A stretch of DNA of 33,705 bases, taken from positions 1 to 33,705 of the forward strand of contig JABMRT010000129.1 of the NCBI GenBank assembly GCA_013202295.1. The letters are read 5' to 3'. The notes beneath the pieces were generated by a model that was not told where the DNA came from, searched no databases, and saw only the letters and a list, made by a program, of their open reading frames with translations. Both the position numbers and the translations under genes were made by a program. This DNA is from Candidatus Zhuqueibacterota bacterium (GTDB taxonomy: Bacteria > Zhuqueibacterota > QNDG01 > JABMRT01). Positions 17 to 17,767 of the stretch are shown here, in pieces. How positions within the stretch are numbered: position 1 is the stretch's first letter; each line of letters opens with the position of its first letter.

Positions 17-1405
17 TTATTTCATCAGTATCATTTTCTTCATATCGGAATAACTGCCTGATTGAATTTTACAGAAATAAATTCCTGAGACGAGTTTATG
101 CGAATCGAATAGTATTTGATGGGATCCGGCATTCAATTCTTGATTCATCAAAGTATAGACAACCTGTCCAGCTACATTGAAGATTTGAACAGTAGTATGC
201 TCTGCTTTCTCCAGTGTAAATGAGATTGTTGTACTTGGATTAAACGGATTGGGATAATTTTGAAGTAATGCAAATCCCTCAGGTGCATTTGCCACAGGCA
301 TGTCAACGGCATCTGGGTTAGCAAGAGCCCCCACCAATTCAAGATCAAAACTGATGTCTGAACTCGTAGCGTTAGTTTGATGTATTTCGACAGCAATTAA
401 ATTCGTGCCTGGAAGCAGATCTTGAGTATCCTCGACCGAACTTGATTCTGAATCATCATCATCGGGGGTGAAAGTCAGATAATAGATGTCACCTTCCGGC
501 ATGTTGATCCGCTCAACCTCATACCCATTGAAATAAATCACGGCACCATCATCATATTTTACTGAAAGGATTAACTCTGAATACCGGTCAGGATCAGGCA
601 AATCAAAACTGTATCTGAAATAGGTTGTCGGATATTTATTCGAATCATCGGATCCATAACTGACCACTGTTGCTTCATCGCCATCGCCATATCCTAATTC
701 GCCAGGACCTGATGCCCAACCTGAATCGTCAAATTCCGGTTCAATCCAGTCGAAACCCTGATCCGAGCCATCATCCAGATAATTCCATACTGAACCGGGA
801 TTCACGATAGGTTCAATGACTGCTGCCGAGCCAACCAGTTGAAGATCAAAACTAAGATCTGAACTTGAACCCCCTACCTGATGTACTTCAACAGCCATTA
901 CATTCGTCCCTGCGACAAGATTTGAAGCATCTTCAAAGGATTCAGCAATTACGTTTTCATGGTCGGTTGGGGTCTCTGTCAGATAATCAATGAGTCCCTC
1001 AGGCAAGTTTATCCGTTCAATTTCGACACCATTCAGATAGACGACAGCACCATCATCATGAAGAACTTGTAAAGACAGGCTTGAAATTTCCGAAGGATCC
1101 GCAACCTCGAAAGTATGCCGGAAATAATAGGTGATGTATTTATTATCGGAGTCAGGCCCATATTCTATGACAGTCGCTTCATCACCATCGCCATACCCTA
1201 GCTGAGCAAAGTCAAGGCCCCAGTTTGAATCATCAAAGGCTGGATCAATCCATGCTGTACCCTGGTCTGTTCCATCATCCAAATAGGTCCATTCAGAACC
1301 CATTTCGATCAGAGTTGTCTGTGCTGTCAACTGATTGATTCCCAGAAAAATCAATGATACTAAGATGAAGCTTGTTATGAACATGTTCGCATTTTTCTTG
1401 TTCAT
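17..1405 (-). CDS. T9SS-sorted protein with two tandem jelly-roll-like domains
   Basis: Predicted exported protein of 462 residues. A signal peptide (about residues 1-29, ending LTAQ) is followed by two copies of a roughly 165-residue domain (about 30-195 and 200-370). Each copy opens with W-x-YLDDG-x-DQG, then D-x-FDDS-x-W, ELGYGDGDEATV, YFR, DDGAV-x-Y-NG-x-E-x-ER and GTN-x-x-AVE-x-HQ. This pattern is known from galactose-binding-like jelly-roll modules in secreted FCB and Planctomycetes proteins. The C-terminus (about 385-462) is a type A T9SS sorting domain with QNYPNPFNPSTTISF and GIYF, ending KKMILMK, so the protein is probably exported by T9SS and anchored or released at the surface. 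The start at 1405 is chosen because TGGGAGGAAAAAATC lies directly before the ATG; an in-frame upstream start at 1447 has no such site and would spoil the signal peptide. Ligand and enzymatic role are unknown; no catalytic motif is seen. Confidence 0.85.
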   Translation of the reverse strand: MNKKNANMFITSFILVSLIFLGINQLTAQTTLIEMGSEWTYLDDGTDQGTAWIDPAFDDSNWGLDFAQLGYGDGDEATVIEYGPDSDNKYITYYFRHTFEVADPSEISSLSLQVLHDDGAVVYLNGVEIERINLPEGLIDYLTETPTDHENVIAESFEDASNLVAGTNVMAVEVHQVGGSSSDLSFDLQLVGSAAVIEPIVNPGSVWNYLDDGSDQGFDWIEPEFDDSGWASGPGELGYGDGDEATVVSYGSDDSNKYPTTYFRYSFDLPDPDRYSELILSVKYDDGAVIYFNGYEVERINMPEGDIYYLTFTPDDDDSESSSVEDTQDLLPGTNLIAVEIHQTNATSSDISFDLELVGALANPDAVDMPVANAPEGFALLQNYPNPFNPSTTISFTLEKAEHTTVQIFNVAGQVVYTLMNQELNAGSHQILFDSHKLVSGIYFCKIQSGSYSDMKKMILMK

Positions 1406-1630: not shown

Positions 1631-3382
1631 CTATTTTACCAATAACATCTTCCTGCTTTCAATATGATTTCCGGTCTGTAACTGATAGATATAAATACCA
1701 GATTCAACCTGAAGACCAGCCAGATTCGTTCCATCCCATTGAACAGAATGATGGCCATTTTGCTGTGTTTGATCCATCAACACTGCTACTGTTTGACCCA
1801 GTGAATTAAACACACTCAGTTTGACATGCGCTGATTTTTCCAGATCAAAATAGATTGTGGTTTCGGGATTGAATGGATTTGGATAATTCTGGAGCAAAGC
1901 GCATTCAGTGGGCAGTGTCTCGATTACAGGATCCACACTGGTTGCAACTTCAGTATTGATACGGGCAGAGACGTTATCCGCGCCACCTGTAATGCCGTCA
2001 TAGTTTTTATATGCAGGCCAGATAGGACCGTCGAAATATTTCTCACCCGGTGTGTCATCGCCAAGATCATCCGTATCCGGGACAAATCCGGTTGCTACCA
2101 CTTCAACCGGTGTGCCATCTTCTGCCAACTCGGTTAACATTGTAAAAATACTGGCTGAGTAGTCTGAAATTTTTGTTAATTCACCGCGGAATCGATACCA
2201 GGTATCCGGATAAAGCTCGGGTAAATCCACGATGCTGGGTCTTTTATCATCAGCACTGAGACCATCCCAATATCCTTCTATATTTAAACCACTGGCGCCG
2301 CTGCCACCGGGATCACACTGAAGTCCCATGATGTTGGAAGACCCAATATCCGTATCACTGATAAACCAGCCAACTCGATCATCATCAAACTGACCTGCTG
2401 CATCGGTTTGAACGTCTATTTCAACAGTGATCTTTTGGAAGTCCGGATCGGTCCAGTCAAACGGATGGGCAGTCCAGACGATGATATTATCATTGGCAGC
2501 GACTCCAGGAGTGCCGTCAATACCTGCGTCTGCTGTGATAGGTGAAGCATCGTCACTGAACCAGTCCGCGTGCTCATTTAAGGTAACACCATCGGCAAAA
2601 CCAATATCGAAACTTTCAAAAAATGAATTCGAAATTATTACAATTTCAAATGAAGCGTTGTCTGCTGCGCCTTCTATGCCGTCATAGTTTTTGTATGCGG
2701 GCCAGATGGGGCCGGCAAAATACTTGGCATTCGGTGCATCGTCGCCAAGCAGGCTGGTATCTTCGACATATCCGGTTCCCACGACATCAAAGGGATTACC
2801 GTCTCCATCCAATTCAGTCAGCATCACAAAAATTTTCGCCGAACCATCTGTGAGTTTCATGATTTCCGCACGAAAGCGATGCCAGGAATTGGCATTAAGT
2901 ACAGGCAAATCCGCGATAAGCGGCCTTTTGTCATCTTCAGTGACACCATCCCAATAGCCTTCTATGGCAAAACCACTGCCGCCTGGATCGAGTTGAAGTC
3001 CAAAAATATTGGAAGAACTTTTGCTGACATCAGAAATCATCCATCCGATGCGATCATCATCAAATGCACTGCTTGCATCGGTTTGAAAGTCCATCTCTAC
3101 GATGATCCCGCAAACGTCCGGATCGGTCCAATCAAACGGATGTGCTGTCCATGTGCAAATCGCATCGCCTGGTGCCAGGCCGTTTGATCCGGCCACACCG
3201 ATACCCGCCGTGATAACAGGACCAGTTCCATTTTCATCAAACCAGTCTGCATGGTTTCCTATAGCGGTATCTAACGTAAAACCTGTTTCAAAATCTTCTG
3301 ATACGATCATCTGAGCAAAAATCAATTGCGTGAATAACAGAGTAAACACAATCATAAATCCGCATACTTTTCTCTTTCCCAT
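1631..3382 (-). CDS. T9SS-sorted protein with two tandem copies of an unassigned lectin-like domain
   Basis: Predicted exported protein of 583 residues. A signal peptide (about 1-24, ending LIFAQ) is followed by two copies of a roughly 220-residue domain (about 28-250 and 254-475). Shared blocks include HADWF, WTAHPFDWTDPD, FDDDR-x-GW-x-ISD, SSNI-x-GLQ, DPGGSG, IEGYWDG, DDKRP, RFR, MLTEL and GPIWPAYKNYDGI. The aromatic-rich beta pattern suggests a concanavalin-A-like sandwich, but I do not recognise the family and that fold is a guess. The C-terminus (about 500-583) is a type A T9SS sorting domain (QNYPNPFNPETTIYF, SGIYIYQL, ending RKMLLVK), so secretion by T9SS is likely. AAGGGGAGGTAAGA precedes the ATG and fixes the start. 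It appears to have its own promoter at about 3423-3449 and a terminator at 1528-1557, so it is probably monocistronic. Confidence 0.85.
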   Translation of the reverse strand: MGKRKVCGFMIVFTLLFTQLIFAQMIVSEDFETGFTLDTAIGNHADWFDENGTGPVITAGIGVAGSNGLAPGDAICTWTAHPFDWTDPDVCGIIVEMDFQTDASSAFDDDRIGWMISDVSKSSSNIFGLQLDPGGSGFAIEGYWDGVTEDDKRPLIADLPVLNANSWHRFRAEIMKLTDGSAKIFVMLTELDGDGNPFDVVGTGYVEDTSLLGDDAPNAKYFAGPIWPAYKNYDGIEGAADNASFEIVIISNSFFESFDIGFADGVTLNEHADWFSDDASPITADAGIDGTPGVAANDNIIVWTAHPFDWTDPDFQKITVEIDVQTDAAGQFDDDRVGWFISDTDIGSSNIMGLQCDPGGSGASGLNIEGYWDGLSADDKRPSIVDLPELYPDTWYRFRGELTKISDYSASIFTMLTELAEDGTPVEVVATGFVPDTDDLGDDTPGEKYFDGPIWPAYKNYDGITGGADNVSARINTEVATSVDPVIETLPTECALLQNYPNPFNPETTIYFDLEKSAHVKLSVFNSLGQTVAVLMDQTQQNGHHSVQWDGTNLAGLQVESGIYIYQLQTGNHIESRKMLLVK

Positions 3383-3600: not shown

Positions 3601-3703
3601 TAATTGATCGCGCCAGGGTTCCGATCCTGGTGCGCATGATATGGGAGGATTGAATCCTCCTGATTGTTACGCCCAAAGATGGGAATCTTTGGGCGATCAA
3701 TTA
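3601..3703 (-). other. Nested multi-hairpin element at the 3' end of the Smr gene
   Basis: Three hairpins lie in series. GCGCCAGG-type at 3610-3635 (imperfect, one 2-base bulge). GGAGGAT (3644-3650) with ATCCTCC (3654-3660), perfect. CGCCCAAAGAT (3670-3680) with ATCTTTGGGCG (3685-3695), a perfect 11-bp stem with a 4-base loop. All three are enclosed by an outer inverted repeat TAATTGATCGC (3601-3611) and GCGATCAATTA (3693-3703). The outer arm includes the stop codon of the Smr gene. No T-run follows any stem, so this is not a standard intrinsic terminator; it may be a terminator, an mRNA-stabilising structure or a structured RNA. Confidence 0.55.
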
Positions 3704-3997
3704 CTTTAATTCAACTATAGTTGCGCCCCATCCTCCAGAACTGGGCGAGGCATCGGAGAATGATACAACATCCTTATGATTTTCCAGCACCTGATGGACT
3801 TCCCATTTCAATCGACTTTTACCCTTGCCGTGAATGATCCGCAACTGTTTCAACTGAAGCGTTCTCGCATTTTCAATGAAGGCATTTACAACTTCCTCGA
3901 TCTGTTCGGGGAAAAAGCCGTGCAGATCCAGTACATCGGTCACCTCGATTTTGTCCGGAATTCCTTCTGGAATCGGGAAGTGGTTCTTCAGGCTCAA
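3701..3997 (-). CDS. Smr-domain protein (MutS2 C-terminal-like)
   Basis: A 98-residue protein that is essentially one Smr domain. The two hallmark motifs are present: LDLHG (residues 23-27) and HGKG (56-59), the latter followed by a K/R-rich stretch and ending GGWGATIVELK. Smr domains are DNA- or RNA-binding and often nick nucleic acid. Here there is no MutS2 ATPase part, as in the small stand-alone Smr proteins known from many bacteria. The start is a TTG at 3997; AAAGAGGA lies 11-12 bases upstream and overlaps the end of the gene before it (stop at 4003). The 5-base gap suggests translational coupling with that gene. No ATG gives a better start without losing the N-terminal part. The substrate is unknown. 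The 3' end runs into the nested hairpins at 3601-3703. Confidence 0.85.
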   Translation of the reverse strand: MSLKNHFPIPEGIPDKIEVTDVLDLHGFFPEQIEEVVNAFIENARTLQLKQLRIIHGKGKSRLKWEVHQVLENHKDVVSFSDASPSSGGWGATIVELK

Positions 3998-4002
3998 TAA
4001 TT

Positions 4003-4452
4003 CTATTCCTCTTTATGGATGGTAATAAGAACAGCAGATTGAAATGGAATGGAGAAGACGATATTTGTCCCCTCTTTAATATAGAAAGGATTGGGACTGT
4101 TTTGATCCAGTGTATAAAGCACAGGATCGGGAGGTGCGGCATAGACTGTGCTGTCATTGTAATCTCCCGGTTCGTCCGAGCCACCAGCAAGCGCGGTCAT
4201 TGTGACCTGATTGCCATAGTCCCGTGAATGGAAATTACAGATATAGGTTCCAGCTGATACGAGCTTATCCTGATCGTCCCTGCCATCCCAAAAAATGGAG
4301 TAATTGCCGGTTCCGACCTGACCTTCAACCAATGTGCGAACCAGTGTCTCCTTCTGCTCTTCTGATAAGGGATCACTGCAGTGGAGTGAGATGAACAGTA
4401 CTCCAAAAATGATTAATAGAGATGTTTGTGTTTTCCAGTATATGGATTTCAT
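4003..4452 (-). CDS. Small exported protein with apparently permuted FlgD-like/T9SS sorting-domain halves
   Basis: A 149-residue protein. A hydrophobic N-terminal segment (about 9-24) is followed by Cys25-Ser-Asp, which suggests a lipoprotein, although the preceding SLH is not a classic lipobox. Residues 35-88 resemble the second half of the FlgD-like/T9SS sorting domain (RTLVEGQVGTGNYSIFWDG, then LVSAGTYICNF). Residues 111-146 resemble its first half (LYTLDQNSPNPF, then GTNIVFSIPF and AVLITI) and the protein stops there. In the other three sorting domains of this window the order is the reverse. No second copy of either half is present and no reading frame continues the C-terminus, since the Smr gene begins 5 bases later. 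The role is unknown; surface assembly is only a guess. The start is the ATG at 4452. Confidence 0.7.
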   Translation of the reverse strand: MKSIYWKTQTSLLIIFGVLFISLHCSDPLSEEQKETLVRTLVEGQVGTGNYSIFWDGRDDQDKLVSAGTYICNFHSRDYGNQVTMTALAGGSDEPGDYNDSTVYAAPPDPVLYTLDQNSPNPFYIKEGTNIVFSIPFQSAVLITIHKEE

Positions 4453-6585: not shown

Positions 6586-7152
6586 TTAACGGATCCAAGG
6601 TTTGCAGAGTATGCCCTGCAATTGCATGTCAAAGAAAGAAAAGGTGTTTGTCGGCCGGATGACTGCTGCTGTATCCGTGCCGTGCGCTGATCCCGCTACA
6701 GATATAACAGATTCATCGGTTCTGATCAAACCCGCATCTGTCGCCATCATTGCGATTTCTACAGCGACCTTGATGCCCTCACCCATGATTCGCAATGTAT
6801 TGGCGATGATATCCTCCAGCCCATGGGTTCCGAACTTCAGTCTCAGCCCTCTGCCCACACCTGCAAACGCGTGAGGACAGGTGAGTAGCACTCCGCCGTT
6901 GGCTTCTATATGGCTGCGGTATTCGGGAAGCATCTCCTGTTCATTCTCAGAATTGAATCCGGTTGCATGACTGACAACCACAATCCGGTGAGATTGAAAT
7001 TGATCCACAGCCAGGGCGCCGGTTTTTCCGCTGGTGCTGGCCACAAGAAGGGTTCCGATAGACAGACGGTCGGCCCACTCCTTTACCAGTTTCAGAGTTT
7101 GCTCAGTGTTTTCTGATCCGGGCTTGTCGAAGTAAGTTGTTTGGAGATCCAT
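6586..7152 (-). CDS. Stand-alone pyruvate kinase alpha/beta (C-terminal) domain protein
   Basis: A 188-residue protein matching the pyruvate kinase C-terminal domain alone: TLLVAST-SGKTGA near residue 35-47, then VVVSHATGF, HAFAGVGRGL, and the end AGSAHGTDTAAVIRPTNT. The catalytic barrel is absent. Such single-domain proteins are known in archaea and bacteria but their reaction is not established; a ligand-binding or phosphate-sensing role is possible. A GGAG ribosome binding site lies 8 bases before the ATG. Its neighbours on the same strand are the CAP-domain gene upstream (95-base gap) and the S9 peptidase downstream (33-base gap). No signal peptide is visible, so it should be cytoplasmic, unlike both neighbours. 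Confidence 0.8.
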   Translation of the reverse strand: MDLQTTYFDKPGSENTEQTLKLVKEWADRLSIGTLLVASTSGKTGALAVDQFQSHRIVVVSHATGFNSENEQEMLPEYRSHIEANGGVLLTCPHAFAGVGRGLRLKFGTHGLEDIIANTLRIMGEGIKVAVEIAMMATDAGLIRTDESVISVAGSAHGTDTAAVIRPTNTFSFFDMQLQGILCKPWIR

Positions 7153-7247: not shown

Positions 7248-7910
7248 TTATCTGAGACGGCTTTTATTTGGCGGCTGAATTCGCCCGAGAAAGTGCTGTG
7301 TCACATAGATCGATTCGAATTCCTGAAAGCGTCCTGTCACAGCGCCCACACCAATCCATTCGAAGTGTGGATTCAGGAGATTCTCCCTGTGACCTGGTGA
7401 GACTATCCAGTGATCCACCATGGCTTTACCGAATTGTCTATATGTGAAATTAAGGATGGGTTTGTGAGTTTCGGCATCCACGGGAATCTGTGTGCCGGTT
7501 GATGTATCCATATAATAATAACGATCAGCGATTTGAAGGATGTAATCCACACCGAGATTTTCACCAATGGTTACGTTGATCAGATCGATTCCTTCCAGCT
7601 TGATCCGGTCATCCAGATGCAGTCTTTCAGGATAAATGGAGGTATGAGATAAAGTCTGCATTTCAGCCTGTTCTATGCTGTATGTGGTCGCAGATTGATG
7701 CAGTAAAGTATGAGATGCAACCGGAGAAAGGTTATACTCCTCTCTGGCCGCGTTGGTCGCAATAATGATTGCTCTCTCTAACAGATATGGATTGTAGGTT
7801 TTTATACGGATTGAGTAATCAAGAAGTGAGGTGGGTGATTGCGATTGTAAAGAGTCCGGGCTATTTTGTAACCCGAGTAATAATAAAAAGAGAATCAGGT
7901 AATGGCTCAT
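7248..7910 (-). CDS. CAP (SCP/YkwD-like) domain secreted protein
   Basis: A 220-residue exported protein. A hydrophobic N-terminus (residues 1-14) is followed by a CAP domain. The family marks seen are N-x-x-REEYNL in the first helix, LSHTS, GENLG and MVDHWIVSPGHRENLLNP followed by W-x-GVGA. Bacterial CAP proteins are extracellular; some act on or bind cell-wall or lipid ligands, but a common function is not established. A GGGAT site lies upstream of the ATG at 7910. It is probably the first gene of a minus-strand unit with the pyruvate-kinase-like and S9 peptidase genes, although the 95-base gap leaves room for a separate promoter. Confidence 0.85.
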   Translation of the reverse strand: MSHYLILFLLLLGLQNSPDSLQSQSPTSLLDYSIRIKTYNPYLLERAIIIATNAAREEYNLSPVASHTLLHQSATTYSIEQAEMQTLSHTSIYPERLHLDDRIKLEGIDLINVTIGENLGVDYILQIADRYYYMDTSTGTQIPVDAETHKPILNFTYRQFGKAMVDHWIVSPGHRENLLNPHFEWIGVGAVTGRFQEFESIYVTQHFLGRIQPPNKSRLR

Positions 7911-8590: not shown

Positions 8591-11500
8591 CTATTTGAGT
8601 AGCAACATGCGCTTGACCTGCTGCCACTCTCCTGCCTTGATCTTGTAAAAATAAATCCCGGATGAGAAGCCTGTGGCATCCCAATGAATTTCGTACATGC
8701 CGGGACGCATCTCTTCATTCATGAGTGTGGCAACCTGTCGTCCGAGTACATTATATATTTGAATGCGCACACGAGACGGTTTTGGTAACCCATACCGGAT
8801 AGTCGTAGCCGGATTGAACGGGTTTGGATAGTTTTCATAAAGCTCAAATACTTTGGGCGCGGCCCCGATCCGTGCGGATTCCACACCGGATATCATCAGA
8901 TTGATATGCAGGGTGTCTGATGCAGAAGCCTCTTCCGGATCGCGTACTGTAAAGACAATGTTAATTTCTCCATAGGCATCAAATAGTGAAATTGAGGCTT
9001 TATGGGTTATGCTATCGATCCCAACATTGATTGCCTGTTCCTCTGTCAGGATGTCATATGTCCAGCGTAAAAGGCTGTCCGGGTGATCGGGATCGGTTAC
9101 ATAGGAATCCAAAGGCAGCATCCAATTCACAGTATCCATGTTCGCCCATTGCGGCTGAGGCAGATCAAATTCGAAGTAGGGAGGATCATTGACTTGAATG
9201 ATTCCCACATTGACGATCAGAGAATCAATTTGTGGATCACTTGAATGATTATCCAATGCAAACACCTTGAACGTCACATGGTCTGATCCGTTTGGTGGCG
9301 TGCCGCTGATCAATCCGCCCGTGGGCTGCATCCATTCCGGGTAATCCTTGAAATAGAGCGAAACTCGCGGACCGTCAATGTCTGTTGCACTGGCGATGTA
9401 TCTGAAGCTGGATTTCTCCGTGGCTGTCGCAGTGTCGGGCGACGTGATAACCGGGGCGTCATTGACCGCGATCACACGGAGTTGCACCTTGACCTGGGCC
9501 TCGAGTGACCCATCCAACGCGATGATGAGGAAGGAAGTGTCTTGAGTGCCTTCCACGGGTGTGCCAGAAATAGTGGCTCCGTTGACAGACAGCCAGTTCG
9601 GATAGTCATCCAAACTTATCGAAACCGGATCGCCTTCAATGTCCGTTGCAGTTGCAGTATAGGAGAAGTGTGTATCCTCAGAAACGGAGGCCGTATCCAG
9701 TGATGTGATCACTGGAGGATCGTTTACGGCCTGAACCGTGAGAGTGACATGCAGGCGTCTTTCGAGTTCTCCGTCCGAAGCAACCACTGTAAATGATGAG
9801 GATGGTGTGCCATTTTCAGGCGTACCAATCAGTTCATCGTCCGAAGCTGTAAGCCAGGCAGGTGCATTTTCGAATGCAAATGTGACCTGATCACCTTCAG
9901 GATCGGTAGCTGTTGCAGCATAAGTGAACTCAATATCTTCGATTGCATTGGCTGAAACCGGGGATGTGATTACTGGTGCGTCATTGACCGGTGTGACAGA
10001 CAAAGTAATTGTTCGTGTATCCGATAAATCCCCGTCACTGACTGTGAGCCGGAACGAAGTGTTTTGCGCACCTTCAGGCGGTGTGCCGCTGATGATGATC
10101 TCATCCGCTGGCGTGAGCCAGTTGGGATGCTGATCATAGGTAAACGTCAGTGGATCGCTTTCCGGATCGGTAGCTGTTCCTGTATACGTAAAGAGTTCAT
10201 GCTCAATTGAGGTTGCGCTGAGTGAAGATGTGATTTCCGGTGCGTCATTGATGGAACTCATGTTCACCTGAACAGTTGCCTGATCAGTCAAAGAACCATC
10301 ACTGACCGTGACCTGAAATGATGTGTTGGTCGCGCTTTCTGGCGGTGTCCCGGAAATTTGGCTGGCCGATGGGGTCATCCATGCCGGATATCCAGTAAAT
10401 GAAAATGTGAGAGGATTGGATTCCGGATCTGTCGCAGTTGCTGTATAAGTAAAGAGCGCATGCTCTGTGGCAGTCACAGATGTCGCGGAAGTCAGAACAG
10501 GCGGATCATTGACTGCAGTAATCTGAACAGTGACCGTCTGTGCATCCGAAAACTCACCATCCGAAACAGCAACCTGGAAGGAAGTGTTTGTCGCACCTTC
10601 AGGGGGCGTCCCTGTAATTTGGGCATTGGATGGATTCATCCATGCCGGATAACTGGAGAAAGTAAATGTCAGTGGATTACTCTCCGGATCGGTTGCTGTT
10701 GCTGTGTATGTGAACAATGCGTGCTCAGTGGCTGTGGCCGAGGTGGCAGATGTCAGTTCTGGAGCATCATTCACCAGATTCAGATTGACAGTTACGGTCT
10801 GATCATCCGAAAGTGATCCATCCGACACATTGATATGGAACGAGGTATTGGTTGTGCCTTCAGGTGGCGTTCCCGAAATTTGACTTCCGGATGGACTCAT
10901 CCATCCCGGATAACTAGAATAAGTAAATGTGAGTGGGTTGTTTTCCGGATCGGTCGCGGTTGCTGTATACGTAAAGAGTGTATGCTCCGTCGCAGACACA
11001 GAGGTCGCAGAAGTTAAAACCGGCGGATCGTTCACAGACTGCATACTCACAGCCACTGTGATCTGGTCCGTTAAATCGCCATCCGAGACCTGTACCTGAA
11101 AGGATGTGTTGGTTGCGCCTTCGGGCGGTGTACCCGAAAGTTGACTTCCGGATGGGCTCATCCAGCCGGGATAACTAGAGAAAGTGAAAGTTAATGGATC
11201 ATTTTCCGGGTCCGACGCAGTCGCAGTATAGATGAATAGGTTATGCTCCGTCGCCCCCACGCTTGAGGCGGATGTCATAACCGGCGCGTCATTCACGGGT
11301 GTGACAGAGACAGTGACAGTTTGCACATCACTGAGTGATCCATCGGTTGCTGTTACACGAAAGGAAGTATTGGCCGCGCCTTCGGGTGGTGTGCCGCTGA
11401 TGACAGCGCCAGACGGGGACAACCATCCCGGATGTTGATCATATATAAAGGTAATCGGATTGGATTCCGGATCTGTCGCAGTCGCAGTATAAGAGAAAGA

Positions 11501-14500
11501 TGCATGCTCTGTGGCGGATGCTGTAGTCGGTGATGTGAGTGTGGGTGCGTCATTTACAGATTGAAGCGTGACTGCAACGGTTTGATCATCCGTGAGCGAT
11601 CCATCTGAAACCTCTACATGAAATGAGGTGTTGCCTGAACTCTCAGGCGGCGTGCCTGAAATCTGATTTCCTGACGGTGTCATCCATGCAGGATAGCTTG
11701 AGAATGTAAATGTGAGCGGATCACTCTCCGGATCCGATGCATTGGCGGTATAGGTAAAGAGCTGATGTTCTGTGGCCGTTACACTTGAAGGCGAGGTTAG
11801 CACCGGCGCGTCATTGACCGGCGTGATTGTGACGGTTACGGTTTCGAGATCCGTCAGTTCGCCATCCGAGACAGTCACTCGGAAGGTGGCATTGGTCGCG
11901 CCTTCAGGCGGCGTGCCAGAAATTTGACTTCCGGATGGACTCATCCATGCCGGATAATTCGAGTATGTAAAGGTTAGCGGATTACTCTCCGGATCCGACG
12001 CTGTGGCTGAATAGGTAAAAAGTTGATGCTCGGTTGCTCCCACACTCGTGGCTGATGTGATAACCGGCGGATCATTGATTGTGTTTAGATCCACAGTGAC
12101 GATGAGATCGTCTGTCAGCGATCCATCCGATGCGGTCACTGTAAAGGATGTGTTGGTCGCACTTTCCGGTGGTGTGCCAGAAATCTGACTTCCGGATGGA
12201 CTCATCCATCCCGGATATCCGGAAAATGTAAAGGAGACAGGATCGCTTTCCGGATCGGTCGCAGTGGCTGTATAAGTGAAGAGTTGATGTTCCGTGGCCG
12301 AGACGCTGGATGCAGATGTGATGACCGGCGGATCATTGACAGCCTGAACCGTGACACTGACCAGCATGTCCACAGTATAAACGCCATCCATTACTGATAC
12401 GTTGAAAGAGGTGTTGGATGCGCCTTCCAATGACGTGCCGCTGATGGTGGCACCGCTGGGTGACATCCAGGCCGGATAACTGTCAAACGAGAAAGTTAAC
12501 GGATCGCTGTCCGGATCGGTGGCCGCGGCCGTGTATGAGAAGAGCACATCCTCAGTTGCTGTAGCAGAATTAGAGGACGTAAAAACAGGCGGTCCGATTG
12601 TAATATCAAAATTCCGCGTCGTGGGTTCTCGCACATTACCTGCCTGATCAAAAGCCTTGACCGTCCAAGTGTGGCTTGCGACACTCAGATCTGCTTCTGC
12701 GGTCCAACTCGTTTGTGCCTGACTAAGATTGTCCTTGGCGACCTGACCATCTACAATGACCTGATACTTCTGGAAACCAGATCCCCCATCCGTAGTCGAT
12801 TGCCAGCTGAATGCCGGACGCCGGGCATGGATTTCGGCTCCCTCCGCAGGCGTGAGTAGGTTGAACGTATTGGGTGGTTGTGAATCCACAAATACATCCC
12901 ATTCCACCGATGAGCGGACATTGCCCGCATTATCCAATGCCTTCACCATCCATGTATGTGTGCCTTGAGAAAGGGCAGAGGTCGGTGTGGCTGAGTTGGT
13001 CTGGTGGTTGTCGCGATTTCGCGCACCATCAATCCACAATTCATATTCCGCGAGACCCGATCCGCCATCCGGTGCAGTCTGCCACGTGAACGCAGGGGAG
13101 GTGGATGCGACTGTTGCACCGCCCGAAGGGTTTGTGAGATTGAAGGTATTCGGCGGGGTGAGATCAATCCTGAGTGTAAATGTGGATTGCGCGGTTCGTT
13201 GATTGCCGAGTTCATCCTCCGCGATCACGGTCCAGTTGTGGGTGCCTTCATCCAGCGCCTGAGCACTTGGAAGGGTTACACTGGCGCTGCTTGATGCGAC
13301 CGGGTCAACGGCAGTATTGCCATCCACTATTAATATATATTTTTCTAACCCAATTCCTGAATCGGTTGACCCGTTCCATGAGAGAACAGGGGTGGCATCA
13401 TTCTGCCAACTGTTGTCTGCTGGAGATGAAAGATTGAAAGTCGAGGGCGGCACATTGTCAATTCGAATCGTCCACGTCTCAGTGGATTTGCGTGTATTGC
13501 CCGCCGAATCCACTGCATTCACATACCAGTTGCGATCTCCGGCACTCAGTGTCGTGGAAGAGATGGTGGTTGTTCCAGAAGCAATATTATCCTGATTGGT
13601 CAGGCCATCCACCACAAGCTGGTATTTCATCAAACCGGTTCCCGAATCCGTGGTTCCGTTCCAACTGAATGCGGGCGTGGTGTCCACGGTCCAGCTGTTA
13701 TTGGCTGGAGAACTCAAGCTGAATGTGGCGGGAGGATCCTGATCCTCCATTGCAGTGAGGTTACGCGTTTCTGTAAACCGAACCAAGCCGGCCGCATCCA
13801 AAGCTCTGACCTTCCACGTATGAGGGCCTTCCGAAAGCTGTTGCGCCAGTGTCAGTGTGTGACTGGTGGTATAAATGAAAGCTTCAACCTGGACGTCGTC
13901 AATAAACAGATCATAATGGTCCAGTCCGGAAAGGGCGTCTGTGGTCGCCTGCCACTCAAAGGTGGGCATGAGTTCGACTACCGCATTCTGTGCAGGAGAG
14001 ATGAGTGCAAACGCGGCGGGCGGATTGGAATCAACGCTGAATACCGGTCCGCCCACGCTACAAAGAAGGACATCTTCATCATTGTATGCTTCGATGCGGA
14101 TTTGTGCAGTCAGGCTATTCACAGTAGACGGGGTCCAGCTGTATGAAAGCACAGCCGGATTGACATTGCCGTTGATGAGGGTGGGGAATCCATCCCCGGG
14201 TGAAGTGGATAGTTTGATTCGAAAATAACTGTAATAGGTTGTGGTGGTTCGCATTTTCCACGCGATGGTCTGTGATTGATCTCCGCGAAGAAGAACACTT
14301 TCGACAGGAGCCGTAATCGTTAAATTCTCATTTGCCGTTTGGGCGTAGACATCGCTGTCGCCGGTTCGCGCGTCCTGCCAGGCCGCGATTACGCCGCCAG
14401 ATCCATCCGCAATCAAGGCATGATTCATCTGATTGCCGGCCGCACTGGCAACCACTTCACCATTCGCGGTCCATCGTTTGGAACCATCGGGGGTCACATG

Positions 14501-15724
14501 CTGACCATAAAGATCATAATCCGAACCATTTCTAAAATCGGTCCAGTAAATGAACGCGCCGCCGGAATCATCCGACGCAATCTGCGGTGTAATGTGATAT
14601 GAGGCAGACGCGACAATCGCCATCCCTTCGGAGGACCATTGCTGCGTGCCGGAACCATCCAATGCTTGCACCCAGATATCGTATGTGCTGAAATCATCCC
14701 ATGCAATGAGCGCACCCCCAGCACCATCCCCGGCAATTTGCGAATTGATCTGACTGCCGGTACGGGTGGTTGCGGCTGTGCCATTGGCTGTCCACTGAAT
14801 CGTGCCGCTGCTGTTCAGGGATTGGCAGAAAATATCCGAGTTCCCATTGCGATTGTCATGCCAGCTGATCACCAGATTGGAGCCGGATAAATCAACTGAA
14901 GGTGAAGCCTGATCACTGCTGGCCGTAGACACTGGAATGCCTTCATAGCTGCCGCCATTGTTCCACTGACGCGTGCCGGCCTGCGGTGTGATGTATTGAG
15001 CATAAATGTCAGTGCCGTTCGATCCGGAACTCCGATAATCCTGCCAGACAATATAGGCGCCATTTCCGTCAAAGTGCATCACATGTTTGGTTTGATCCCC
15101 AGCCGCTTCGGAGACGGGAACACCCGCGTTGATCCAGAGACGGGTCCCATTGCCATCAATCCGCTGTGCGAAAAGATCCGTGCCATTTGTGATTTTATTT
15201 CTATCATCTTTCCAGACGAGAATGGTATTGCCCTGTTCGTCCGCAATCATTTTGACGAAGGATTGCTTGCCGGTTGCCGTACATACTGTAATCGCGGATG
15301 GCCATAAAAGAGTTTGACTTTGATTGATACGCTGGATTTTAATTTTGCCTGTGGCTTCATCATGCCATGCTATATATGATCCACCTGCGCCATCAGACGC
15401 AACGGCTGGATTCTTCTGATTGCCCGCATCCGTGGAAATGGGTACCCCATTGGTATCCCATTGCAATGTACCATCGCCCGAAATCCACTGTGCATAAATA
15501 TCCGAATCCCCGGCTGGATTGTGTTCATAGACGATCACCGCTCCACCGTTTTCATCCGAAGTCATGCTCAAATTGACGAGTGATGCTGTGGATGGAGCCA
15601 CACGTACGCCGTGTGCGGTCCATTGAAATTGTGCATATATTGGAATCGTGAGGAGTGAGAGGAGTATCGTTAAAATCCAAATCACTGGTGATGAATTTAT
15701 ATATGGTGTATAGTGCGCTTTCAT
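8591..15724 (-). CDS. Giant T9SS-sorted adhesin-like protein with 13 cadherin-like/putative Ig repeats
   Basis: A 2377-residue exported protein. After a signal peptide (about 1-32, ending PIYAQ) there are four regions. Residues 33-465 hold eight propeller-like blades (W-x-x-x-G-x-x-(V/I)S, then GG-x-x-(I/V)AW-x-D-x-R, then D-(I/V/L)-YAQ). Residues 468-565 form a beta domain. Residues 567-1040 are five Ig/FN3-like modules starting PP-x-(T/A)F-x-L and ending with a W-V-x-A-x-D motif. Residues 1041-2180 are 13 repeats of about 87 residues with (I/L)TS, E-x-x-x-F-x-Y, ATDPESDPLTF, W(M/L), SGTPPEG and SDG, ending VNDAP. The DPE and ND motifs suggest calcium binding. The C-terminus is a type A sorting domain (ENYPNPFNPATTIRY, ending KRMLLLK). 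It should be a surface adhesin or matrix protein; the ligand is unknown. AGGGGGAATGATATTTCT precedes the ATG. Confidence 0.9.
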   Translation of the reverse strand: MKAHYTPYINSSPVIWILTILLSLLTIPIYAQFQWTAHGVRVAPSTASLVNLSMTSDENGGAVIVYEHNPAGDSDIYAQWISGDGTLQWDTNGVPISTDAGNQKNPAVASDGAGGSYIAWHDEATGKIKIQRINQSQTLLWPSAITVCTATGKQSFVKMIADEQGNTILVWKDDRNKITNGTDLFAQRIDGNGTRLWINAGVPVSEAAGDQTKHVMHFDGNGAYIVWQDYRSSGSNGTDIYAQYITPQAGTRQWNNGGSYEGIPVSTASSDQASPSVDLSGSNLVISWHDNRNGNSDIFCQSLNSSGTIQWTANGTAATTRTGSQINSQIAGDGAGGALIAWDDFSTYDIWVQALDGSGTQQWSSEGMAIVASASYHITPQIASDDSGGAFIYWTDFRNGSDYDLYGQHVTPDGSKRWTANGEVVASAAGNQMNHALIADGSGGVIAAWQDARTGDSDVYAQTANENLTITAPVESVLLRGDQSQTIAWKMRTTTTYYSYFRIKLSTSPGDGFPTLINGNVNPAVLSYSWTPSTVNSLTAQIRIEAYNDEDVLLCSVGGPVFSVDSNPPAAFALISPAQNAVVELMPTFEWQATTDALSGLDHYDLFIDDVQVEAFIYTTSHTLTLAQQLSEGPHTWKVRALDAAGLVRFTETRNLTAMEDQDPPATFSLSSPANNSWTVDTTPAFSWNGTTDSGTGLMKYQLVVDGLTNQDNIASGTTTISSTTLSAGDRNWYVNAVDSAGNTRKSTETWTIRIDNVPPSTFNLSSPADNSWQNDATPVLSWNGSTDSGIGLEKYILIVDGNTAVDPVASSSASVTLPSAQALDEGTHNWTVIAEDELGNQRTAQSTFTLRIDLTPPNTFNLTNPSGGATVASTSPAFTWQTAPDGGSGLAEYELWIDGARNRDNHQTNSATPTSALSQGTHTWMVKALDNAGNVRSSVEWDVFVDSQPPNTFNLLTPAEGAEIHARRPAFSWQSTTDGGSGFQKYQVIVDGQVAKDNLSQAQTSWTAEADLSVASHTWTVKAFDQAGNVREPTTRNFDITIGPPVFTSSNSATATEDVLFSYTAAATDPDSDPLTFSFDSYPAWMSPSGATISGTSLEGASNTSFNVSVMDGVYTVDMLVSVTVQAVNDPPVITSASSVSATEHQLFTYTATATDPESDPVSFTFSGYPGWMSPSGSQISGTPPESATNTSFTVTASDGSLTDDLIVTVDLNTINDPPVITSATSVGATEHQLFTYSATASDPESNPLTFTYSNYPAWMSPSGSQISGTPPEGATNATFRVTVSDGELTDLETVTVTITPVNDAPVLTSPSSVTATEHQLFTYTANASDPESDPLTFTFSSYPAWMTPSGNQISGTPPESSGNTSFHVEVSDGSLTDDQTVAVTLQSVNDAPTLTSPTTASATEHASFSYTATATDPESNPITFIYDQHPGWLSPSGAVISGTPPEGAANTSFRVTATDGSLSDVQTVTVSVTPVNDAPVMTSASSVGATEHNLFIYTATASDPENDPLTFTFSSYPGWMSPSGSQLSGTPPEGATNTSFQVQVSDGDLTDQITVAVSMQSVNDPPVLTSATSVSATEHTLFTYTATATDPENNPLTFTYSSYPGWMSPSGSQISGTPPEGTTNTSFHINVSDGSLSDDQTVTVNLNLVNDAPELTSATSATATEHALFTYTATATDPESNPLTFTFSSYPAWMNPSNAQITGTPPEGATNTSFQVAVSDGEFSDAQTVTVQITAVNDPPVLTSATSVTATEHALFTYTATATDPESNPLTFSFTGYPAWMTPSASQISGTPPESATNTSFQVTVSDGSLTDQATVQVNMSSINDAPEITSSLSATSIEHELFTYTGTATDPESDPLTFTYDQHPNWLTPADEIIISGTPPEGAQNTSFRLTVSDGDLSDTRTITLSVTPVNDAPVITSPVSANAIEDIEFTYAATATDPEGDQVTFAFENAPAWLTASDDELIGTPENGTPSSSFTVVASDGELERRLHVTLTVQAVNDPPVITSLDTASVSEDTHFSYTATATDIEGDPVSISLDDYPNWLSVNGATISGTPVEGTQDTSFLIIALDGSLEAQVKVQLRVIAVNDAPVITSPDTATATEKSSFRYIASATDIDGPRVSLYFKDYPEWMQPTGGLISGTPPNGSDHVTFKVFALDNHSSDPQIDSLIVNVGIIQVNDPPYFEFDLPQPQWANMDTVNWMLPLDSYVTDPDHPDSLLRWTYDILTEEQAINVGIDSITHKASISLFDAYGEINIVFTVRDPEEASASDTLHINLMISGVESARIGAAPKVFELYENYPNPFNPATTIRYGLPKPSRVRIQIYNVLGRQVATLMNEEMRPGMYEIHWDATGFSSGIYFYKIKAGEWQQVKRMLLLK
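9185..12600 (-). repeat. Thirteen tandem 87-residue cadherin-like/putative Ig repeats in the giant gene
   Basis: Units of about 262 bases repeat 13 times. Central units (about the 2nd to 10th) are closely alike even at DNA level: short blocks such as TTGACTTCCGGATG recur almost unchanged near 10886, 11146, 11928 and 12187. The outer units are more diverged, especially the last three (ends of the array near 9185-9970). This pattern suggests that the middle of the array grew by recent duplication or is kept alike by recombination. Confidence 0.85.
12600..14025 (-). repeat. Five tandem Ig/FN3-like modules in the giant gene
   Basis: Five units of about 94 residues. Each begins PP-x-(T/A)F-x-L-x-P and continues with a W-x-x-(T/S)TD-x-x-(S/T)G core, (I/V)DG and a W-x-V-x-A-x-D block. 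They lie between the beta domain that follows the propeller-like region and the cadherin-like array, and probably form a stalk. Confidence 0.75.
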
Positions 15725-16207: not shown

Positions 16208-17767
16208 ATGAATCAAGTTAAAGGTCAAATATTGTGGGCAGATGATGAAATTGATCATCTGAAATCCCACATTCTCTTTTTAGAGCAGCGCGGGTATGCA
16301 GTCACGCCTGTAACCAATGCCGGTGATGCAATCGAGTTGGTTAAGAAACAGCGTTTCGATCTGATTCTGCTTGATGAAATGATGCCGGGTATGGATGGCC
16401 TGGAAGCATTGAATCGCATTAAAGAACTCGATCCGGCTTTGCCAGTGGTCATGGTGACGAAGAGTGAAGAAGAAAATCTCATGGAAGATGCGATCGGCGG
16501 GCGTATAGAGGATTATCTTACCAAGCCAGTCAATCCAAGTCAGATTCTGAGCTCTTGTATTCGCATCCTTGAGAAGCGGCGTATCTCAGGTGATAAATTG
16601 ACACGGGATTATACCAAAGAGTTCATGGAAATTTCCAATTCGCTCGGGAGCGACATGTCGCCGCAAGATTGGATTGACATTCATATCAAGCTCTCCGAAC
16701 GTGAAGTGGATCTGGATGCCCATCCCGATTTGGGGCTTCGGCAGACGCTGCTTGATCAGCGCCGGGAATGCAATCAAGTATACAGCCGGTATATTGAAGA
16801 CAATTATCTGACCTGGCTTCAGGGCTATGATGTACCGATTCTTTCAAAGGATCTGGTTCGTGAAAAAGTCATCCCCCATTTACGTGAAGACAAACGTGTG
16901 CTTTTCGTGGTCGTTGATAATCTAAAACTTGATCAATGGCTCGTTCTTGAAAATCTCCTATATGATTATTTTACAATCACACGCGATTACTATTTTTCAA
17001 TTCTTCCCACAGCCACACCTTATAGCCGCAATAGTTTATTTGCCGGTTTAATGCCATCCCAAATTGAAGCCGACTACCCCGATTTATGGGTGCACAGCGA
17101 AGATGATGAAACCAGCTTAAACCGTCATGAACACGCCCTGCTTGATCATCTACTGGAGCGAGAAGGTATTGTCCTGAAACCGGAAACCAAATATATAAAG
17201 GTCATGGATGCCGACGAAGCAAAAAATGCGGCCAATCAGGTGGATTCATTTCTGTCTGTTCCTCTCTCGGCCATGGTCTTTAATTTTGTGGATATCATGT
17301 CCCATCGACGTAGCGATTCCGAACTGCTCAAAGAGATTGTGCCGGATGAAGCGGCTTTCCGCTCTCTAACGCGCACCTGGTTTGAACATTCCGCATTGAT
17401 CCATATCTTAAAAGCGGCTGCCCGAACTGATGTCACGGTTGTGCTGACATCCGATCATGGATCCATCCGGACGATGCGCGGTGCAACCGTGCATGCCGAC
17501 AGACAGACCTCCACGAACGTGCGCTACAAGTATGGACGAAGTATTCGTACAGATTCCAAACAGGCATTCGAAATCAAAGATCCCCAAAAATATGGCCTGC
17601 CCGCGCGCGGCCTTAACACCAATTATCTGATCGCCAAAGAAGATTTTTATTTTGTATATCCGACCAATTATCACAAATATCTGGCACTTTACAGGGACAG
17701 TTTTCAGCATGGCGGTATTTCGCTTGAAGAAATGATTCTGCCTGTGATCACTCTGGTCGGAAAATAA
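16208..17767 (+). CDS. porX: PorX-like response regulator with PglZ/alkaline phosphatase domain
   Basis: A 519-residue two-domain cytoplasmic regulator. Residues 6-120 are a receiver domain: Asp12-Asp13, phosphoacceptor Asp56 in LLDEMMPGMDG, Thr84 and Lys106 in TKP. Residues 225-515 are a PglZ domain of the alkaline phosphatase superfamily: VVDNLKLDQW (Asp237), Thr270 in TATPYSRNS at the place of the catalytic threonine described in PorX, and TSDHGS (Asp416, His417) as metal ligands. In Bacteroidota PorX pairs with PorY, controls T9SS genes and cleaves oligonucleotides. The close match in both domains and the T9SS cargo genes nearby support the same role here. No PorY kinase is in the window. 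It is the first gene of a plus-strand run; tsaE follows after 13 bases, a neighbourhood I recall from Bacteroidota. Confidence 0.88.
   Translation: MNQVKGQILWADDEIDHLKSHILFLEQRGYAVTPVTNAGDAIELVKKQRFDLILLDEMMPGMDGLEALNRIKELDPALPVVMVTKSEEENLMEDAIGGRIEDYLTKPVNPSQILSSCIRILEKRRISGDKLTRDYTKEFMEISNSLGSDMSPQDWIDIHIKLSEREVDLDAHPDLGLRQTLLDQRRECNQVYSRYIEDNYLTWLQGYDVPILSKDLVREKVIPHLREDKRVLFVVVDNLKLDQWLVLENLLYDYFTITRDYYFSILPTATPYSRNSLFAGLMPSQIEADYPDLWVHSEDDETSLNRHEHALLDHLLEREGIVLKPETKYIKVMDADEAKNAANQVDSFLSVPLSAMVFNFVDIMSHRRSDSELLKEIVPDEAAFRSLTRTWFEHSALIHILKAAARTDVTVVLTSDHGSIRTMRGATVHADRQTSTNVRYKYGRSIRTDSKQAFEIKDPQKYGLPARGLNTNYLIAKEDFYFVYPTNYHKYLALYRDSFQHGGISLEEMILPVITLVGK

Follow-up and report, generated by a model that had tools for sequence, protein, structure and literature searches.

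The closest described domains are the C-terminal sorting domain of T9SS cargo (T9SS CTD; PF18962, Por_Secre_tail), represented by the CTDs of RgpB (5AG8), PorU, PorZ and mirolase, and the Ig-like domain of FlgD (PF13860; FlgD structures 3OSV and 7BHQ). By mutagenesis in Porphyromonas, two motifs were shown to be required for T9SS export, one in the loop between strands β3 and β4 (Lβ3β4) and one at the C-terminus; the β3-β4 motif is not conserved in the mirolase CTD (PMC11285876). For RgpB, the main export signal has been placed in the last two strands (PMC4804311).

Here we consider a small lipoprotein encoded in a stretch of 33,705 nucleotides from Candidatus Zhuqueibacterota bacterium (contig JABMRT010000129.1; the whole stretch is referred to as the window). 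It contains strand segments homologous to those of the T9SS CTD and shares with it the P-N-P-F start motif, G-x-Y and WDG, but the agreement extends over 90 of 93 columns only after rotation. In contrast to the T9SS CTD, the segments follow in the order β4-β7/β1-β3, an N-terminal lipid anchor is predicted, there is no cargo domain, and the β3-β4 glycine and the free C-terminal strand have been lost. Its second half also matches the FlgD Ig-like domain (E = 6e-4 against FlgD in PDB); unlike in FlgD, the first half comes after the second, and the whole is a free-standing lipoprotein. The same β4-β7/β1-β3 succession can be read in the middle of a pair of domains in tandem FlgD_ig arrays (loci L014 and L100), but in the arrays each half has its complement within its own domain, whereas the lipoprotein consists of the middle only. 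Neither Pfam nor NCBIfam has a model for this lipoprotein family, and our literature search returned no paper in which the T9SS CTD or FlgD is connected with circular permutation.

We believe, with a probability of about 0.8, that the protein is an anchored, circularly permuted FlgD-like/T9SS-CTD-like Ig sandwich, which would act in the envelope by binding or as a scaffold and most likely carries no export signal.

Results

The gene and the features used below are given in Table 1. The initial annotation placed the gene at the right coordinates, with one correction concerning the strand. The open reading frame is read from 4452 to 4003 on the minus strand (149 amino acids plus a stop), and the plus strand has stops throughout. 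The product consists of a signal stretch, a polar linker, a second-half-like stretch, a loop and a first-half-like stretch at the C-terminus: IVFSIPFQSAVLITIHKEE. The motifs VRTL, G-x-Y-x-I-x-WDG, AGTY and NQVTMTAL lie in residues 35-90; QNSPNPF, NIVFSIPF and AVLITIHKEE lie in residues 111-149, where the chain ends. The lipobox was identified by eye and from the alignment, as a hydrophobic stretch followed by a cysteine. No cargo domain is found in the mature protein.

Table 1. Coordinates of the lipoprotein gene, its parts and neighbouring features in the window
Feature	Position	Strand	Evidence or remark
Permuted FlgD/T9SS-CTD-like lipoprotein gene (permutation strongly supported by sequence)	4003..4452	-	149 aa; 28 aligned orthologues; dN/dS 0.09-0.24 in close pairs
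Signal peptide, residues 1-24, lipobox ...FISLH|C	4381..4452	-	Cys25 invariant, 28/28
Predicted lipidated Cys25 and linker CSDPLSEEQK, residues 25-34	4351..4380	-	Family C-x-N/D/S-P-...; Cys25 and Pro28 invariant
Residues 35-90, corresponding to β4-β7 of the normal fold	4183..4350	-	FlgD_ig 32-69/79; hhalign to normal columns 38-91
Residues 91-110, new β7-to-β1 connection	4123..4182	-	Alignment of family members
Residues 111-149, corresponding to β1-β3 of the normal fold	4006..4122	-	hhalign of this half alone to normal columns 3-35
Secreted S9 prolyl-oligopeptidase-type peptidase, upstream, 670 aa	4540..6552	-	PF00326, PD40
Smr-domain protein, downstream	3701..3997	-	PF01713; start 5 bases past the lipoprotein stop
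Normal-order sorting domain (comparison)	20..283	-	PF18962
Normal-order sorting domain (comparison)	1634..1912	-	PF13860/PF18962
Normal-order sorting domain (comparison)	8594..8857	-	PF18962

It had been proposed from the letters that residues 35-88 resemble the second half of the sorting domain and residues 111-146 its first half, and that the three other sorting domains of the window have the opposite order. Both observations stand. Residues 33-70 match positions 32-69 of the 79 positions of FlgD_ig (PF13860), that is, the second half only, at 24.9 bits; the Pfam cut-off of 27 bits is not reached by the window protein, and 17 of the 28 members match the model at E ≤ 0.01. Residues from about 105 to 146 match the first half of sorting domains from the same genome. 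A search of the own genome with the protein returned 138 matches at E ≤ 1, nearly all of them sorting domains. At least a dozen of the proteins found match both halves side by side and in reverse order, the counterpart of residues 105-146 first and that of residues 38-88 second (contigs C208, C72, C123, C58, C296, C155, C260, C270, C42, C177, C21 and C218). The three window domains, all on the minus strand, are in this normal order as well.

For a quantitative comparison, the profile of the mature family was aligned by hhalign, in every rotation, with a profile of 42 normal-order domains from the fetched loci. The native order gave 54 of 93 aligned columns (normal columns 38-91) and a score of 85.1. 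With the start moved to anywhere between residues 86 and 113 approximately, 90 of 93 columns were aligned, with a score of about 130 and an E-value of about 1e-24; such a rotated profile begins in the loop that precedes the P-x-P-F motif. Taken by itself, the P-x-P-F half scored 53.9 against the 42-domain profile, whereas 200 shuffles of its columns gave a mean of 10.2 (s.d. 2.4) and never more than 18.1. When this half was shuffled within the rotated profile, the score never exceeded 88.2, and its reversal gave 84.9. A plateau at one end of the rotation scan, together with these controls, is as a circular permutation predicts. Single sequences put back into the normal order were still below the Pfam cut-off; the absence of a gain is explained by the first half not being scored in a single-sequence HMM search.

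The rotation scan, the shuffle controls, the own-genome matches and the conservation in 28 aligned orthologues thus strongly support the suggestion of the initial annotation that the FlgD-like/T9SS-CTD Ig fold is circularly permuted in this protein. We regard the permutation as established at the level of sequence homology; a common three-dimensional fold would be expected from it.

In a search of 99 relatives, 28 further genomes of the phylum gave a match over the full length, with 28-54 % identity in the first search and a length of 140-165 amino acids in most. According to the 28-member profile, the family is present in 29 of the 82 genomes of the phylum, one copy in each, at E ≤ 2.3e-27. 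With the threshold relaxed, the family is followed by partial matches to normal domains with E-values of 1.6e-12 or weaker, which leaves a clean gap below it. The swapped order occurs in all 28 aligned members, and normal-order homologues, which were sought as a possible refutation, do not occur among the orthologues. Eleven residues are invariant in the alignment: C25, P28, G49, W55, G57, G68, Y70, P120, P122, F123 and G128. In close pairs dN/dS is 0.09-0.24 by the Nei-Gojobori count, with synonymous sites approaching saturation in some of them. We are dealing with a conserved gene that is present once per genome and subject to purifying selection. The 121 genomes sampled from five other phyla (1, 17, 60, 39 and 4 genomes) yielded no member, but this sample is small and the absence weak evidence. 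A search of genome contigs with the single protein returned four normal-order domains and no orthologue.

These data bear on a less favourable explanation, namely that the protein is what remains of two sorting domains after decay or fusion and does not form a folded whole. Such an origin would agree with the Pfam match below the cut-off, and a tandem array trimmed on either side would give the same picture (see L100 below). However, the worry about a degraded copy is answered by the full-length conservation in 29 genomes and the dN/dS values; there are no stops, and the invariant residues are distributed across both halves. We give this explanation almost no credence.

Structure prediction adds little to the above. 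AlphaFold2 with the single sequence of the whole protein was unusable (pLDDT 42). With an alignment composed of the halves of canonical domains from the window and related loci, which biases the model to the normal fold, the mean pLDDT was 67.5 and pTM 0.63; the β4, β5, β6, β2 and β3 blocks had pLDDT of 83-93, and the loop and β1 (residues 65-102 counted from Cys25) were below 50. Since the alignment leans to the normal fold, this model indicates compatibility only. A Foldseek search against PDB gave chance matches (all E > 0.001, TM about 0.3), which is expected for a permuted partial model and a sequential aligner; it offers no support.

The initial annotation also considered a two-piece module that would pair with the half domain of a partner by strand exchange; the completing halves could equally come from a second copy, as in a swapped dimer. 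The normal RgpB CTD alone does dimerise with its last strand swapped, both in crystals and in solution (PMC4804311), and the new C-terminal strand β3 is a free end in our case. But each of the seven strand segments occurs once in the chain, with 90 of 93 canonical columns in register, so no half of a partner is needed. In addition, each genome has one copy, and we saw no protein that carries the complementary halves alone. Strand exchange consequently appears very improbable, and we retain the single permuted sandwich.

The point of the cut can be localized from the comparison with the 42 normal domains. Their β3-β4 turn reads I-Y-N-x-x-G-x-x-V, with the glycine in all 42, and their last strand β7 has a basic residue (K/R) in 40. 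Members of the family end in I-Y-K-D (T-I-H-K-E-E in the window protein), at the start of the old β3-β4 turn, and restart across this turn with L-V-R-x-L, about ten residues past the lipid anchor. The old strand β7 is internal and runs into the loop to β1, and both new termini lie in the loop β3-β4. The Lβ3β4 glycine and a free C-terminal β7 with a basic residue are both absent from the family.

The loop joining β7 and β1 is conserved like the core (mean majority fraction 0.55 versus 0.47-0.60 in the strand regions). In 20 members outside the order of the window organism, it is close to GGK-x-G-x-NN...F-x-PGFW...EL. Considering this conservation, we propose the loop as a putative functional surface.

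The S9 peptidase gene lies upstream of the lipoprotein gene, adjacent and on the same strand, in 21 of the 29 genomes, mostly at less than 100 bases. A 22nd member of the peptidase cluster (locus L056) was left out of this count: it is a different, more distant peptidase. The Smr gene is adjacent to or near the lipoprotein gene in eight genomes of the window organism's order, and the arrangement PK_C-lipoprotein-Smr without S9 is found in three genomes.

Discussion

Because the permutation breaks both motifs needed for export in Porphyromonas, the domain is most likely not an export signal. The argument is good, although it is not a proof, since it is based on Porphyromonas mutants and the Lβ3β4 motif is absent from the mirolase CTD. 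The loss of both motifs, together with the lipobox cysteine invariant in 28 of 28 members, supports the assignment of the protein as a lipoprotein rather than a cargo; the earlier view of Cys25 as the mark of an anchored piece thus appears correct. Most likely, an export domain has been disarmed here and put to a new use as an envelope module with a lipid anchor.

The following arrangement can be proposed. In every orthologue the segments are ordered β4-β5-β6-β7, a conserved loop, and β1-β2-β3. The whole mature part would form one permuted FlgD-like/T9SS-CTD-like Ig sandwich, in which the two new ends should meet at the former β3-β4 hairpin, so that no partner would be needed to close the sandwich. 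Lipid-modified Cys25 would then tether the domain at the β3-β4 tip, and the β7-β1 loop, which takes the place where cargo is normally attached, would face away from the membrane. We take this loop, which reads GGK-G-NN-PGFW in most members, to be the likely site of binding. The cut through Lβ3β4 and the internal position of β7 would most likely leave no export signal, and the protein may have an anchored role in the envelope, binding other components or acting as a scaffold, possibly for the secreted S9 peptidase encoded next to it.

A closer relation to this peptidase is also conceivable: the lipoprotein could be its dedicated subunit or membrane anchor. Both products are exported to the envelope, and the adjacency described above, with mostly short gaps, extends across distant families. 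Nevertheless, S9 orthologues without the lipoprotein are present in many genomes, and at five loci (L103, L105, L106, L112 and L116) S9 is followed directly by Smr, the lipoprotein gene being missing between them. Conversely, the lipoprotein has no adjacent S9 in eight genomes (G001, G002, G004, G009, G037, G051, G074 and G075). An obligate pair is excluded, as each gene is found without the other, and we consider a dedicated subunit unlikely.

As the fold is that of the cargo signal, one may also think of a T9SS accessory: as a membrane-anchored CTD mimic, the lipoprotein would bind to the CTD receptor and modulate secretion. The translocon protein SprA is indeed present in all 82 genomes of the phylum. 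Being universal, it does not track the family, and its co-occurrence is uninformative; the lipoprotein itself is found in only 29 of these 82 genomes. Both known recognition motifs are missing from it, and no T9SS gene adjoins its gene. A role of this kind seems quite improbable to us.

Returning to the disarmed domain, it is tempting to go further and to propose that permutation turned an export-signal domain into an anchored scaffold or receptor, since the two motifs read by the translocon are those hit by the cut and the join. In that case the permutation itself would have switched off export and left the fold available for a new function at the envelope, which might concern T9SS cargo or the S9 peptidase. 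This extension is possible, and we advance it tentatively.

The family may be viewed as an experiment of nature that shows where in the CTD fold the export signal resides: the fold would be kept, and exactly the two motifs found by mutagenesis are removed. Expression as a small soluble domain is feasible, which makes the claim easy to test.

As to the origin, the simplest route would be a tandem duplication followed by the loss of both outer halves, which is suggested by the layout rather than by a tree; the probable source is a tandem FlgD-like pair trimmed at both ends. Within the phylum, tandem arrays offer a candidate for an intermediate stage. At locus L100 (G035:C22:1500-4500), in a genome of the phylum without the family, the C-terminal part of a protein consists of a FlgD_ig-like domain and, after it, a sorting domain in normal order. 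Its stretch from β4 of the first domain to β3 of the second matches positions 34-139 of the permutant model at 42.9 bits, and we consider this protein a possible intermediate. It also contains SPGFWL, similar to the PGFW of the family. A long array of FlgD_ig-like repeats with a sorting-domain-like end was observed in an Elusimicrobial protein (L014, 3795-7001).

Several other genes of the window can be mentioned. At 6586-7152 (minus strand) there is a stand-alone pyruvate-kinase C-terminal (PK_C) domain protein, whose gene adjoins the lipoprotein or the S9 gene in several genomes of the window organism's order. An exported CAP-domain (PF00188) protein is encoded at 7248-7910 (minus strand), and an exported protein of 2377 amino acids with 13 cadherin-like stretches, five Big_13 domains and a normal-order sorting domain at 8591-15724 (minus strand). 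The gene at 16208-17767 (plus strand) combines a response-regulator receiver with a PglZ domain (PF00072, PF08665), an architecture that we take to be that of the T9SS regulator PorX.
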